DNA from: Sinorhizobium terangae
GTDB lineage: Bacteria > Pseudomonadota > Alphaproteobacteria > Rhizobiales > Rhizobiaceae
Assembly: GCF_029714365.1 (NCBI RefSeq)
Contig: NZ_CP121659.1
Span: forward strand, 2,604,001-2,668,000
DNA length: 64,000 nucleotides
Direction of reading: 5' to 3'
The notes under the pieces are model-generated. The model was given only the letters and a program-made list of their open reading frames with translations, was not told where the DNA came from and ran no database searches. Positions 19,206 through 57,919 of this stretch are shown piece by piece (within the stretch, counting starts at the first letter, position 1; each line of letters begins with the position of its first letter). Both the position numbers and the translations under genes were made by a program.

Positions 19206-19760
19206 TCACGAAACGAATGCGCGCGAGGTGATGGGCGCCGAGGTCTCATCGGGGCCGTAGTCGTTCTCGCCTTGCACCTGGAGAATTTCCTGAAGGCGCT
19301 GGCGCGCGCGATTGACGCGGCTCTTGATGGTGCCGAGCGCGCAGCCGCAGATTTTAGCAGCTTCTTCGTAGGAAAAGCCGGAGGCACCGACCAGGATAAT
19401 CGCTTCGCGCTGGTCCGGAGGCAACTGATCAAGGGCACGCCGGAAATCCTGGAGATCGAGTGAACCGTATTGCTCGGGATGGTGGGCAAGCGATTCGGTG
19501 AAATGGCCGTCACTGTCCTGGATCTCCCGACCGCGCTTGCGCATCTGGCTGTAGAGCTCATTGCGCAGGATCGTGAAGAGCCACGCCTTCATGTTCGTGC
19601 CGATCTCGAAATGGTCCTGTTTCGCCCAGGCCTTCATGATCGTGTCCTGCACGAGATCGTCGGCTCGATCGTGGCGGCCGATGAGCGACATGGCAAAGGC
19701 GCGCAGGCTGGGAAGTGCCGCGAGCATCTCGCGCTTGAATTCTTGATTTTCAGACGGCAT
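19206..19760 (-). CDS. rpoE2: ECF sigma factor EcfG/RpoE2 (general stress response)
   Basis: 184 residues. Sigma region 2 (about 10-80: LPSLRAFAMSLIGRHDRADDLVQDTIMKAWAKQDHF...MKAWLFTILRNELYSQMRKR) and region 4 (about 110-165: ALDQLPPDQREAIILVGASGFSYEEAAKICGCALGTIKSRVNRARQRL). The context with nepR immediately upstream (8 bases) and divergent phyR identifies it as the alphaproteobacterial EcfG, called RpoE2 in S. meliloti. It directs RNA polymerase to GGAAC-N16/17-CGTT promoters, three of which lie in this locus, including the one that drives its own operon. Confidence 0.95.
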   Translation of the reverse strand: MPSENQEFKREMLAALPSLRAFAMSLIGRHDRADDLVQDTIMKAWAKQDHFEIGTNMKAWLFTILRNELYSQMRKRGREIQDSDGHFTESLAHHPEQYGSLDLQDFRRALDQLPPDQREAIILVGASGFSYEEAAKICGCALGTIKSRVNRARQRLQEILQVQGENDYGPDETSAPITSRAFVS

Positions 19761-20046: not shown

Positions 20047-20071
20047 GGAACCTTTTTTTCAGCCGGGCGTT
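20047..20071 (+). promoter_or_regulatory. EcfG/RpoE2-type promoter of phyR
   Basis: GGAAC (20047-20051), a 16-base spacer with a T7 run, and CGTT (20068-20071), 46 bases before the phyR start. Its -35 element is only five bases from the -35 element of the divergent nepR promoter, so two polymerases could hardly occupy both at once. Confidence 0.85.
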
Positions 20072-20116
20072 TCCGCGTCGAGACAAGAACCGAAGACATG
20101 ACTGAGGGAGTCCTGA

Positions 20117-20911
20117 ATGACACTGTCTAACCGGATCGCGCCGCTCCTGCCCTATCTGCGCCGTTATTCCCGCGCTTTGACCGGCTCACAAACCTCGGGC
20201 GATGCCTATGTGGCGGCCGTTCTTGAGGCTCTTATCGCGGATACCGCGATCTTTCCCGAAGCGAGCAATGACAGGGTCGCTCTATTTCGTCTTTATACCT
20301 CCTTGTTCGGCTCATCCTCGGTCCTGATCCCTGAGCCGGTTTCGCCCTTTGCCTGGGAACAGCGGGCATCGGTCAACCTCGCGGCGGTATCGCCGCTGGC
20401 GCGTCAAGCCTTCCTGCTCGTGTCGGTCGAAGGCTTCAGCACTAACGAGGCTGCAGAAGTGCTTGACGTCGATACAGACAAATTGAGCGCGCTTCTCGAG
20501 CGGGCATCGCAGGAAATCTCGCGTCAGGTTGCGACCGATATCATGATCATCGAGGACGAACCGTTGATCGCGATCGACATCGAGCAGATGGTCAAGAGTC
20601 TCGGCCATCGCGTCACTGGCATCGCACGGACCCGGGACGAGGCAATCGCTCTTTACAAGGACACGAAGCCCAGCATGGTGCTCGCCGACATCCAGTTGGC
20701 GGATGGAAGTTCCGGCATAGATGCCGTGAACGAGATCCTGAAGACCGCCGCCATTCCGGTGATTTTCATCACCGCCTTCCCCGAGAGACTGTTGACCGGC
20801 GAACGGCCCGAGCCGACCTTCCTTGTCACGAAGCCCTTCAACCCGGAAATGGTCAAGGCACTTATCAGCCAGGCGCTATTCTTCAATGAATCGACAAAAG
20901 CGGCCGCCTGA
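20117..20911 (+). CDS. phyR: PhyR anti-anti-sigma response regulator
   Basis: 264 residues. N-terminal sigma-like domain (about 1-135: region 2-like LLPYLRRYSRALTGSQTSGDAYVAAVLEALI, region 4-like VSPLARQAFLLVSVEGFSTNEAAEVLDVDTDKLSALLERA) and C-terminal receiver (about 140-258) with acidic pocket E146-D147-E148, phosphoacceptor D191 in MVLADIQLADGS and Lys in LVTKPF. When phosphorylated it captures NepR and frees the ECF sigma factor. Divergent from nepR-rpoE2 with a shared promoter region. Confidence 0.96.
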   Translation: MTLSNRIAPLLPYLRRYSRALTGSQTSGDAYVAAVLEALIADTAIFPEASNDRVALFRLYTSLFGSSSVLIPEPVSPFAWEQRASVNLAAVSPLARQAFLLVSVEGFSTNEAAEVLDVDTDKLSALLERASQEISRQVATDIMIIEDEPLIAIDIEQMVKSLGHRVTGIARTRDEAIALYKDTKPSMVLADIQLADGSSGIDAVNEILKTAAIPVIFITAFPERLLTGERPEPTFLVTKPFNPEMVKALISQALFFNESTKAAA

Positions 20912-20961: not shown

Positions 20962-21093
20962 CGCAAAACAGCCAGTGCCGAGGGAAGGGCACTGGCTGAG
21001 CTTTATCAACTCACAGAGGGGATGTGAGTTGGGCAACCGGCGGTATGCCTCCGGCGTCACATTGGGGGCGATGTGCGCCACCGTCCGGTTGTC
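20962..21093 (-). ncRNA. Candidate general-stress-regulated small RNA
   Basis: A stand-alone transcript is predicted on the minus strand: a perfect GGAAC-N16-CGTT promoter (21124-21100), about 130 bases without a convincing reading frame, and a strong hairpin with a TTTT run at the end. An internal hairpin AACTCACA-UCCCCUC-UGUGAGUU (21030-21008) shows a C-rich 7-base loop able to pair with Shine-Dalgarno sequences, as in known alphaproteobacterial stress sRNAs such as GsrN of Caulobacter. Ends are estimates (start 6-7 bases after the -10). It may already be listed in transcriptome data of Sinorhizobium; I cannot check. Confidence 0.6.
20969..20998 (-). terminator. Terminator of the candidate sRNA (possibly bidirectional with phyR)
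   Basis: 11-bp stem CAGCCAGTGCC / GGCACTGGCTG with an 8-base loop; on the minus strand it is followed by TTTTGCGTT (20968-20960). In the plus direction there is no T-run, but the stem lies 58 bases after phyR and may also slow that transcript. Confidence 0.7.
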
Positions 21094-21099
21094 TGCCCA

Positions 21100-21124
21100 A
21101 ACGCGCACGTAAGAAAAAAGTTCC
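21100..21124 (-). promoter_or_regulatory. EcfG/RpoE2-type promoter of the candidate sRNA
   Basis: Minus strand GGAAC (21124-21120), 16-base spacer, CGTT (21103-21100). It matches the phyR and nepR promoters exactly in its key bases but has no annotated gene downstream in its direction before the terminator at 20969-20998. It begins about 15 bases downstream of the FGGY kinase stop. Confidence 0.75.
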
Positions 21125-21139
21125 GAAAAAAATTGCCGG

Positions 21140-22723
21140 CTACTCCATCGCTTCCAACTCCGCGCGATGCCGGTAAAGGGTCAGAAACCGCTGATAGTCG
21201 CGATCGTAGAGATTGCGCAAGGCAGCGTTGGGAAGACGTTCCTGACCATTGGACCCCATTGCCGTCCCCGCCGTTGCGAGATCGCAGTAAAGTCCGCCGG
21301 CAACAGCAGCCGCCATCGCTGTGCCGAGCAGCACGGCATCGGGCGTTTCGGGCGCAACCACGCGGCAGCCGGTCGCATCGCAATAGAGCTCCATCAGCAG
21401 CGGATTGCGCACATGACCGCCGGTTACATGCAGCGTATCGAGATTGTATCCCGCCTCTTTCATCATTTCGAGAATGTGCCGGATGCCTAGCGCGATCGCG
21501 ACACAGGCGCGCCAATAGAGACGGCAAAGCGCATCGAACGATGAATCGAGCGCGAGACCGCTGATGACGCCGAGCGCGTGCGGATCGGCGAGCGGCGATC
21601 GGTTGCCGTGAAAATCGGGAAGAACGTGCAACCGATCGGCGAAGGCCGGGCCATGAAGCGCGCGCAGTTCCTGCACGCGCTGGATGATCTTCATGTGCGT
21701 CTCCGCGGTCGGTTCCCGCCCACCGCCATGCACGCGCACGATATGATCGAGGAGCGCGCCCGTCGCCGACTGCCCGCCCTCGACCAACCAGCAGCCCGGA
21801 AACACCGCCTCGAAATAGGGCCCCCACATGCCGAAGCCCGGCTTCATCTCGCGTGAAAAGGCGACAATACAGCTCGAGGTGCCGGCGATGAGGGCGAGTT
21901 GCCGTTCGAGATTTGCGGGCTCGGCGGCAAATCTGCCGAGCACGCCGAGCGCGCCGGCATAGGCATCGATCAGTCCCGGTGCAACCCGGCATTCCGTGTC
22001 GAGGCCTAGCTCCCCGGCCGCCGTTGCGGTCAGGGTCCCGACTGCGCTGCCAATGGGCAGGGTTTCCTCAGGCAGCCCCCCTCGGCCGAGAAGGTCCGCA
22101 AGGCCGATCTCTTCGAGATAGTCGGCCTGCCAGCCTCTCTCCTTATGCGCGAGATAATTCCATTTTGCCGTGAGCGTACAACGCGATCGCGCGGTGCTGC
22201 CGGTCGCGCGCCAGGACATGTAATCCGCAAGATCGAAAAAATAGCCGGCCCTTTCCCATTGCCCGGGAAGGTTTTGCTTCAGCCACATCAACTTCGGCAT
22301 TTCCATCTCCGGCGACATCACGCGGCCGGAATGGTGAAGGACGGGATGCTCTGTCGACGTGCAGAAATCGGCCTCCTTGAGCGCCCGGTGATCGAGCCAA
22401 ACGATCGTGTCCCAACGCGCGTCACCGGCACGATTGACCGAAAGCGGTGCGCCGTCACGATCGCGTACGACCAGCGAGCAGGTCGCGTCGAAACCGATCG
22501 CTGCGACATTATCCGCGGCGACACCGGCCTTGTCGCGTGCCGCCTTGACCGCCCCGCAGACCGCCGCCCAAATATCCTCGGAATCCTGCTCGGCGTGGTT
22601 TTCTTCCGGCCGGTTCATGGCAATCGGCCTGTCGGCCCGCGCGAGAAGCTTGCCTTTCCGGTCAAAAATGCCGGCACGGGCGCTACCGGTGCCGATATCG
22701 ACCGCAACGACATATTCGCGCAT
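21140..22723 (-). CDS. FGGY-family pentulose/polyol kinase (D-ribulokinase-like)
   Basis: 527 residues. FGGY hallmarks: N-terminal phosphate loop YVVAVDIGTGSARAGIFD, the catalytic Asp region GLIDAYAGALGVLG, and the C-terminal HVTGGHVRNPLLMELYCDATG ATP motif. It is of the ribulokinase-like 5-carbon kinase subfamily rather than a clear XylB. Probably phosphorylates a ketose made by the mannitol/sorbitol dehydrogenases downstream of the smo transporter. ATG 22723 chosen; an upstream start adds nine residues. It lies about 90 bases after the HAD gene in the same direction. Confidence 0.85.
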   Translation of the reverse strand: MREYVVAVDIGTGSARAGIFDRKGKLLARADRPIAMNRPEENHAEQDSEDIWAAVCGAVKAARDKAGVAADNVAAIGFDATCSLVVRDRDGAPLSVNRAGDARWDTIVWLDHRALKEADFCTSTEHPVLHHSGRVMSPEMEMPKLMWLKQNLPGQWERAGYFFDLADYMSWRATGSTARSRCTLTAKWNYLAHKERGWQADYLEEIGLADLLGRGGLPEETLPIGSAVGTLTATAAGELGLDTECRVAPGLIDAYAGALGVLGRFAAEPANLERQLALIAGTSSCIVAFSREMKPGFGMWGPYFEAVFPGCWLVEGGQSATGALLDHIVRVHGGGREPTAETHMKIIQRVQELRALHGPAFADRLHVLPDFHGNRSPLADPHALGVISGLALDSSFDALCRLYWRACVAIALGIRHILEMMKEAGYNLDTLHVTGGHVRNPLLMELYCDATGCRVVAPETPDAVLLGTAMAAAVAGGLYCDLATAGTAMGSNGQERLPNAALRNLYDRDYQRFLTLYRHRAELEAME

Positions 22724-22811
22724 CAATGGATGTCTCCGTCCCGAGATCACGATGATTTGAGAGGTCAGAACGGCATGTGGTCACGCTGCATTGCCGCCAT
22801 CCTGCTCTGAC

Positions 22812-56206: not shown

Positions 56207-57919
56207 CTAGAACAGGAAATACCGCTGCGCCATCGGCAGAACCGTCGCCGGCTCGCAGGTCAAGAGCTCGCCATCGGCGCGGACCTCGTAGGTCTCCGGG
56301 TCGACTTCGATATGCGGCGTGAGGCTGTTGTGGATCATCGACGCCTTGCCGATGCCGCCGCGGGTGTTCTGGACGGCGACGAGTTCCTTGGCGACACCAA
56401 GCCTGCCTGCAAGCCCCGCATCGAGCGACGCCTGTGAGACGAAGGTGACCGAGGAGTTGGTCCGGTTTCGGCCATAGGCTCCGAACATCGGCCGGTAGTG
56501 GACCGGCTGCGGCGTCGGGATCGAGGCATTGGGGTCGCCCATAGGCGCCGCGGCGATCGAGCCACCGAGCAGCACCATGTCGGGCTTCACGCCGAAGAAC
56601 GCCGGGTTCCAGATGACAAGGTCGGCGCGCTTGCCGACTTCGAGCGAACCGATCTCATGACTGAGGCCATGGGCGATCGCCGGGTTGATCGTGTATTTGG
56701 CGACGTAGCGCTTGACCCGGAAGTTGTCGTTGTCGCCGGTCTCTTCCTTCATCCGTCCGCGCTGGCGCTTCATCTTGTCGGCCGTCTGCCAGGTGCGGAT
56801 GGCCACTTCGCCGACGCGGCCCATGGCCTGGCTGTCGGACGAGATGATCGAAAAGGCGCCGATGTCGTGCAGGATGTCCTCAGCCGCGATCGTCTCCTTG
56901 CGGATACGGCTTTCGGCAAAGGCGATGTCCTCCGGGATGGACGGCGACAGGTGGTGACAGACCATCAGCATGTCGAGATGCTCTGCCAACGTGTTGAGCG
57001 TGTAGGGCCGCGTCGGATTGGTCGAGGACGGGATCACGTTCGGCTGACCGCAGATCTTGATGATATCCGGTGCATGGCCGCCGCCTGCCCCTTCCGTATG
57101 GAAGGCATGGATCGTCCGGCCCTTGATCGCGGCGATCGTATCCTCGACGAAGCCGCTCTCGTTCAGCGTGTCGGTGTGGATCATCACCTGCACGTCATAT
57201 TCGTCGGCAACCGAGAGGCAGCAGTCGATCGCCGCCGGCGTCGTGCCCCAATCCTCGTGCAGCTTCAGCGAGGTGGCGCCGCCGAGCACCATTTCCACAA
57301 GCGCGCCGGGGAGCGACGCATTGCCCTTGCCGGCGAAGGCGAGGTTCATGGGGAATGCATCAGCCGCCTCGATCATCCGGGCGATGTGCCAGGGGCCCGG
57401 CGTGCAGGTCGTTGCGAGCGTGCCGTGCGCCGGGCCGGTGCCGCCGCCGAGCATGCAGGTGAGGCCACTCATCAGCGCTTCCTCGATCTGCTGCGGGCAG
57501 ATGAAGTGAATATGGCTGTCCATGCCGCCGGCCGTGACGATCTTGCCTTCGCCGGCGATAACTTCCGTACCCGGGCCGACGATGATGGTGACACCCGGCT
57601 GCGTGTCCGGATTGCCGGCCTTGCCGATCGCCGCGATCCGCCCGTCCTTGAGGCCGATGTCCGCCTTTACGATTCCCCAATGGTCGACGATCAGCGCGTT
57701 GGTGATCACGGTGTCGACCGCGCCGCCCTCGCGCGTGACCTGGCTTTGCCCCATGCCGTCGCGGATAACCTTGCCGCCGCCGAACTTCACCTCTTCGCCA
57801 TAGGCGGTGAAATCCTTCTCGACTTCGATGAAGAGTTCGGTATCCGCAAGGCGCACCTTGTCACCCACCGTCGGACCGAACATGTTGGCGTAGGCCGCGC
57901 GCGACATCTTGTAGGGCAT
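56207..57919 (-). CDS. ureC: Urease alpha (catalytic) subunit UreC
   Basis: 570 residues, the normal length. HIHFICPQ gives two nickel-binding His, the Lys in [19 protein letters not shown] is the carbamylated bridge, [38 protein letters not shown] holds further ligands and [13 protein letters not shown] is the flap Cys/His. Hydrolyses urea to ammonia and carbamate. Three bases after the GT29-like gene. Confidence 0.98.

Follow-up and report, generated by a model that had tools for sequence, protein, structure and literature searches.

A small RNA gene conserved beside phyR in Sinorhizobium terangae, with an EcfG-type promoter: a probable counterpart of ReC64

In the analysed stretch of Sinorhizobium terangae DNA (64,000 nucleotides, referred to as the window), comparison of sequences across relatives shows that the gap beside phyR contains a genuine small RNA gene, which is strongly conserved and has a general-stress promoter. 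The best explanation, which we hold with a probability of about 0.87, is that the RNA is the orthologue of ReC64 of Rhizobium etli, very probably also that of SmelC601 of S. meliloti, and that it is most likely an antisense regulator. Homology, promoter, hairpins, C-rich loops and the linkage to phyR come from sequence comparison. We infer transcription in this organism; in R. etli, EcfG dependence, the start site and the transcript were shown by others. An earlier sequence-only reading of the window had proposed a small RNA gene under the control of the general-stress sigma factor beside phyR. This proposal is supported by the comparative evidence, and the R. etli counterpart is EcfG1-dependent. 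The kind of RNA is already known and is in print under other names; the gain lies in unified names and a defined family.

The locus, the promoter and the fold

The small RNA gene has a predicted length of 129 nt and lies on the minus strand at 20965-21093 (fold z -7.3; homologues found by blastn and covariance models). Its ends are predictions: the start was placed at a distance of 7 nt from the last -10 base, and the last U was taken as the end. The phyR side of the gap carries the genes for PhyR, EcfG and an HWE kinase, and the other side those for an FGGY kinase, an HAD hydrolase and a mannitol dehydrogenase (Pfam). The phyR gene (rsiB1; 20117-20911, plus strand; Pfam PhyR_sigma2, PhyR_sigma-like and Response_reg) is convergent with the RNA gene, and its nearest named relatives were from Ensifer/Sinorhizobium. 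The general-stress sigma factor gene ecfG (rpoE2; Pfam Sigma70_r2 and r4_2) is found at 19206-19760 on the minus strand, and nepR is presumed at the locus from the gene order in S. meliloti Ak57. The FGGY carbohydrate kinase gene (21140-22750, minus strand; Pfam FGGY_N and FGGY_C) lies on the same strand as the RNA promoter and upstream of it.

The EcfG/RpoE2-type promoter GGAAC-N16-CGTT (21100-21124, minus strand) was an exact motif match, present just as the sequence-only reading had described it: GGAAC at 21124-21120, a spacer of 16 nt and CGTT at 21103-21100. Allowing spacers of 16 or 17, the motif occurred three times in the 64-kb window, compared with 1.05 expected per 64 kb under a first-order random model. 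The remaining two occurrences are divergent and lie between phyR and the presumed nepR-ecfG pair. An EcfG-type motif is also located ahead of phyR, at 20047 on the plus strand. As about one motif per 64 kb is expected by chance, the motif alone is not significant.

The predicted RNA folds into three hairpins with an energy of -62.8 kcal/mol, compared with -37.9 for shuffled sequences (z -7.3; none of 200 shuffles was as good). All three are on the minus strand. SL1, the 5' hairpin (21034-21091), consists of an outer helix and an inner hairpin with the loop CGCCCCCA (21070-21063), and it is additional to the hairpins listed earlier. SL2 (21007-21031) has a 9-bp stem and the loop UCCCCUC (21022-21016); it is the perfect internal hairpin that had been described, and its nine pairs were recovered at 21031-21007. 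SL3 (20965-20998) is the predicted intrinsic terminator, with an 11-bp stem (20998-20969), the loop CUUCCCUC (20987-20980) and a U tract (TTTT in DNA; 20968-20965). The 11-bp hairpin with a TTTT run, which had been placed about 130 bases after the promoter, was thus found at 20998-20965. A terminator scan of the region from 18 to 25 kb gave 7 sites, compared with 6.9 expected. The terminator by itself proves nothing, because terminator-like sites occur at background level.

Conservation and distribution

A blastn search with the window stretch gave a match in 92 of 113 sequences; the 92 include the window and its copy, and some genomes are present under two names. The 21 misses were 13 phyR loci and 8 unrelated loci. 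A homologue was found beside phyR in all 80 phyR loci (67 by blastn and the other 13 by the covariance model R2), these loci being the best-matching phyR relatives and not a random sample. In 80 of 80, the RNA lay downstream of phyR on the opposite strand and had an EcfG-type promoter. In a genus survey, the RNA was present in 32 of 33 genomes and in 31 of the 31 good ones, with one match in the genome of the window. An earlier count had matched the gap in 22 of 23 same-genus genomes, and the miss was a genome that is 70% complete.

With a permissive pattern (spacer of 15-18 bases, any first -10 base), the promoter was found in 89 of 89 cleanly extracted homologues. The spacer was 16 in 87 of them and 17 in two; the -10 element was CGTT in 52, CATT in 29 and another sequence in 8. 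In the 15 loci searched with model R2, the promoter always stood 6-7 nt before the model start. Because blastn matched mainly the 3' part of distant homologues, the promoter is independent evidence there. The 29 CATT elements were mostly from Sinorhizobium/Ensifer, including the S. meliloti Ak57 homologue (promoter at L104:3971-3995), and CGTT was found in the window and in most Rhizobium-type relatives.

The hairpins were conserved as well. The outer helix of SL1, scored as present with at least five pairs in the minimum-energy fold, was found in 84 of 87 distinct homologues and comprised 69 distinct arm pairs. Its inner stem had two pairs with 4 and 16 two-sided changes (45 sequences). The stem of SL3 was nearly invariant across the 45 aligned homologues, with one pair changed from C-G to G-C in 11 of them. 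RNAalifold gave 22 pairs in the 45 sequences, 5 of which had two-sided changes. Exactly three hairpins were formed in 69 of 75 distinct homologues. CCCTC was found in 74 of the 75, also with an unpaired copy in 74, counted over the whole RNA and not in SL2 alone. Comparing promoter, loop and terminator in relatives had been proposed as a check; the promoter was kept in 89 of 89 homologues, and CCC stood in three hairpin loops in 64 of 75 distinct homologues. The conservation of promoter, spacing and hairpins exceeds chance and therefore settles the reality of the gene.

Two observations concern variation within the family. The motif GCCCCCAA (alignment columns 25-50) occurs in the apical loop of SL1 in Sinorhizobium, and in many Rhizobium-type RNAs it lies on the 3' side of SL1 instead. 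Two RNAs (L068 and L062) carry it at both places, as if the site had moved within the hairpin. The distance between phyR and the RNA was 2,167 bases in S. medicae USDA1037 (L041:3793-6087), with RNA and promoter intact, and 39 to 293 bases in 25 other Sinorhizobium/Ensifer-type loci.

The same region could be read as the 3' untranslated end of the kinase mRNA with its terminator, preceded by a promoter-like motif that arose by chance. The kinase frame, which has the same orientation, stops 15 bases before the motif, a motif of this kind is expected about once per 64 kb, and the hairpin could also terminate kinase transcripts. However, no homologue of the kinase was found in the flank of ~1.6 kb upstream of the RNA in any of 30 Rhizobium-type loci (L073-L103 without L085), and all 30 kept the RNA (19 by blastn, 11 by R2) and its promoter. 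These loci have a histidine kinase match between phyR and the RNA. Moreover, the spacing of 16 in 87 of 89 homologues speaks against a chance motif, and the R. etli promoter at this place works as a promoter (PMC3892343). As RNA and promoter persist without the kinase in 30 of 30 loci, the RNA is not merely the kinase 3' end, and we consider that reading very unlikely.

The sequence-only reading had also seen no credible gene in the gap. An open reading frame of 53 aa with a GTG start (21108-20947) does span the RNA, but the frame is not conserved. A small stress-induced protein encoded by the stretch would fit this frame and the presence of some open reading frame of at least 50 codons within the stretch in 21 of 89 homologues. 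However, of 91 homologues, counting the window, only 8 have a start codon at the corresponding distance, the RNA lengths were spread over all three values modulo 3 (36, 23 and 32 for 0, 1 and 2), and the substitutions among homologues preserve the hairpins. On these grounds the protein was rejected as extremely improbable.

Beyond the genus, the small RNA family was followed with two covariance models. Model R1 gave matches in 27 of the 151 genomes of a family sample. An EcfG-type promoter was in place in 18 of the 27 (L113-L130), several of which had contributed sequences to R1. Of these 18, 16 show phyR in the flank, and the other two were assigned to contigs with a linked phyR, namely those of L068 and L070. 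The remaining nine matches were weak and had neither promoter nor phyR. Model R2, which was built with ten of the new family loci, matched 19 of the 151 genomes, namely the same 18 and one weak one; strict filters may lose more. R2 retained only 16 base pairs, probably because MAFFT misaligned distant stems.

Five members of the family sample (L126-L130) have a PhyR that is only 57-58% identical. Model R1, built without them, matched their RNAs with E-values of 3.6e-10 to 8.5e-6, a range that some matches lacking promoter and phyR approach (1.7e-6, 1.9e-6). All five RNAs lie downstream of phyR, have the EcfG-type promoter in place (with a weaker -10 element in L129) and contain the loop core CCCCUCC. 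In the order sample, R1 matched 6 of 199 genomes and R2 4 of 249; outside the family, these were weak matches, none with phyR or a promoter in place. In the class sample, R2 matched 1 of 190 genomes, the window's own, and none of the 189 others. On the evidence of these alignments and models, one sequence family newly joins the ReC64-type and Sinorhizobium RNAs and extends to relatives with a PhyR identity of 57-58%.

Known counterparts and similar RNAs

ReC64 of R. etli lies downstream of phyR-tcrY and has an EcfG1 promoter with which the 5' RACE start agrees; a gusA fusion to this promoter was silent in the ecfG1 mutant (PMC3892343). Like the window RNA, ReC64 is intergenic at the phyR locus and has an EcfG promoter. 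A homologue of the window RNA occupies the place of ReC64 in R. etli-group genomes (L087, L091, L092 and L095), after the kinase gene that follows phyR. ReC64 was thus equated by place and promoter, and its sequence homology is that of R. etli-group relatives rather than of the CFN42 letters. There are also differences. The reported length of ReC64 is 88 nt, with a second, larger band; this compares with 129 nt predicted here and a model match of 123 nt in the four R. etli-group genomes. A histidine kinase gene separates phyR and the RNA in Rhizobium-type loci, and there is none in the window. In a study of R. etli CE3, ReC64 was up under salt shock, and the promoters assigned to it were of the SigA and RpoH types and not of the EcfG type.

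The sequence-only reading had left it undecided whether the transcript is already in Sinorhizobium transcriptome lists. It very probably is, as SmelC601 (SMc06778) of S. meliloti 1021, an RNA of 127 nt on the minus strand that has a predicted RpoE2 promoter and is expressed in nodule zones (PMC7143759). Both RNAs are on the minus strand, single copy and preceded by a predicted RpoE2 promoter; the species differs. The Ak57 homologue (L104:4004-4130) has the 127 nt of SmelC601 when its start is placed 9 bases after the last -10 base, a distance chosen to fit and within the 5-12 nt used between promoter and start in PMC3616915. The identification of SmelC601 uses its strand, length, promoter and approximate position, and not the 1021 sequence. 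SmelC601 is ~49.5 kb away from trpL in 1021; for the homologues, this distance is 47.8 kb in Ak57 and 45.6 kb in both G608 and G006. As the trpL distance varies, the place of SmelC601 agrees within strain differences and not exactly. The nearness of its coordinate to that in the window genome (~2,625,000) was dismissed as chance: trpL is near 2,502,058 here and at 2,575,832 in 1021.

Other reports add to this picture. PMC3616915 names eight sRNA regions with array support for rpoE2 dependence, and these names do not include SmelC601. Its terminator stem is called atypical in PMC3927594, whereas that of the window RNA is regular. The locus is unnamed in the examined sections of PMC2573895. The R. 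etli-group and Ak57 relatives showed what characterises the phyR-linked family: homology, three hairpins, a promoter at fixed distance and a position downstream of phyR on the opposite strand. We recognised no functional study of this rhizobial RNA in the open-licence literature. As a side observation, CP090106.1 of S. meliloti Ak57 (L104, L105) is labelled 'plasmid pSymB', but its size of 3.7 Mb and the presence of rsiB1, anthranilate synthase and leuA suggest a mislabelled chromosome.

The analogy of this locus to GsrN of Caulobacter crescentus is already in print: the authors of the GsrN study used proximity, promoter and published expression to predict GsrN-like RNAs at the stress locus of R. 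etli and of S. meliloti (PMC5869019). GsrN and the window RNA share EcfG-type control (sigma-T in Caulobacter) and an exposed C-rich 5' loop; the window RNA has an EcfG-type promoter and the C-rich loop CGCCCCCA near its 5' end, as that paper requires of a GsrN-like RNA. GsrN is reported to have BLASTn matches only in Caulobacteraceae (PMC5869019). No similarity between the two RNAs was seen, as judged by R2 in the class sample and the published BLASTn and not by direct alignment.

Three hairpins are also described for NfeR1/alpha-r14 and AbcR RNAs, with unpaired C/U-rich motifs that are thought to bind ribosome-binding sites (PMC7143759). The window RNA resembles the NfeR1/alpha-r14 RNAs in its three hairpins with C/U-rich loops. 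Unlike NfeR1/alpha-r14 and AbcR, it is single copy, has an EcfG promoter and is linked to phyR. Matches to suhB (AbcR-like) in this genome lie elsewhere.

Rfam gave no family in this gap at the gathering score. Membership of an Rfam family was set aside at this threshold; there were four sub-threshold matches, the best being RsaE/RoxS at 20966-21036 on the minus strand (23.6 bits, gathering 79, E 0.055). RsaE/RoxS is another RNA with C-rich loops, and the match is therefore probably a likeness of the loops only. Elsewhere in the window, at 57478-57766 on the plus strand, 5_ureB_sRNA (RF02514) matched with 113.9 bits (gathering 40). We take this family to be the antisense RNA of Helicobacter ureB, and the match may merely reflect conserved urease coding sequence.

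Possible targets and meaning

UCCCCUC, which the sequence-only reading had singled out, is one of three C-rich loops. The three stable hairpins would hold up CGCCCCCA, UCCCCUC and CUUCCCUC, and these loops would base-pair with G-rich segments of stress-regulated mRNAs, chiefly with their ribosome-binding sites. The RNA most likely acts as an antisense regulator; its pairing mode and every target are predictions.

One possibility is that the RNA works like GsrN, whose C-rich loop pairs with the katG leader and activates katG. The GsrN study (PMC5869019) takes as its criteria EcfG control, proximity to the stress locus and a C-rich 5' loop that is exposed, and the katG leader of this genome holds CAGAGGGG, which is complementary to the SL2 loop. 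The gene katG was found in 32 of 33 genomes. We submitted 21 katG leaders, one per genome with known RNA sequence, and 17 were scored. CAGAGGGG was found in only one of these 17; the most negative z was -0.94 (this genome), and 12 of the 17 leaders were above zero. As the complementarity was not kept, conserved katG pairing was rejected. The pairing with katG is a feature of GsrN that is not conserved for the window RNA, and a GsrN-like mode of action is unlikely.

Alternatively, the RNA could target the phyR ribosome-binding site GAGGGAG (20104-20110, plus strand), which is complementary to the CCCUC loops, and so close a feedback loop on the stress response. GAGGGAG was present in 48 of 80 phyR leaders. 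For pairing, phyR ranked 2nd of 55 gene starts in the window and 4th of 57 when the starts with the best Shine-Dalgarno sequence (SD) were used. Sinorhizobium phyR leaders had a mean z of -1.55 relative to shuffled leaders, with 0 of 27 above zero, and 24 of the 27 had their best pairing site at the SD (-22 to -3). However, the other groups were weak (mean z -0.54 in 23 loci, -0.18 in 29 Rhizobium-type loci and -0.5 in 5 distant ones), and C-rich loops match many SDs. On phyR leaders, RNAs from the same group paired better than swapped RNAs in three of four groups, in one of them narrowly, and worse in one; from the RNA side, own-group phyR leaders were best in two of the four. A similar match of ecfG (3rd of 57, best-SD starts) was not kept, and ecfG was rejected as a conserved target with GAGGGAG in only 2 of 86 leaders. 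Given related sequences and a post hoc choice, the phyR target is a lead only: we consider it rather unlikely, and it is only in Sinorhizobium that the phyR ribosome-binding site is a modest candidate. We also regard as rather improbable the fuller scheme of a feedback arm, in which RNA made under EcfG would use its CCCUC loops to pair with the ribosome-binding site of phyR, whose product activates EcfG, and would limit the response, with leader and loops co-evolving at least in Sinorhizobium.

To our knowledge, the alphaproteobacterial stress switch is known mostly through its proteins. An RNA that is tied to phyR and has a fixed promoter and three C-rich loops, conserved from Sinorhizobium to relatives with a PhyR identity of 57-58%, is an argument for post-transcriptional control as a regular component of this switch in much of the Rhizobiaceae. 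With ReC64 and the Sinorhizobium RNA in one family, it becomes possible to combine the results obtained in R. etli and in S. meliloti and to search for targets by conservation.
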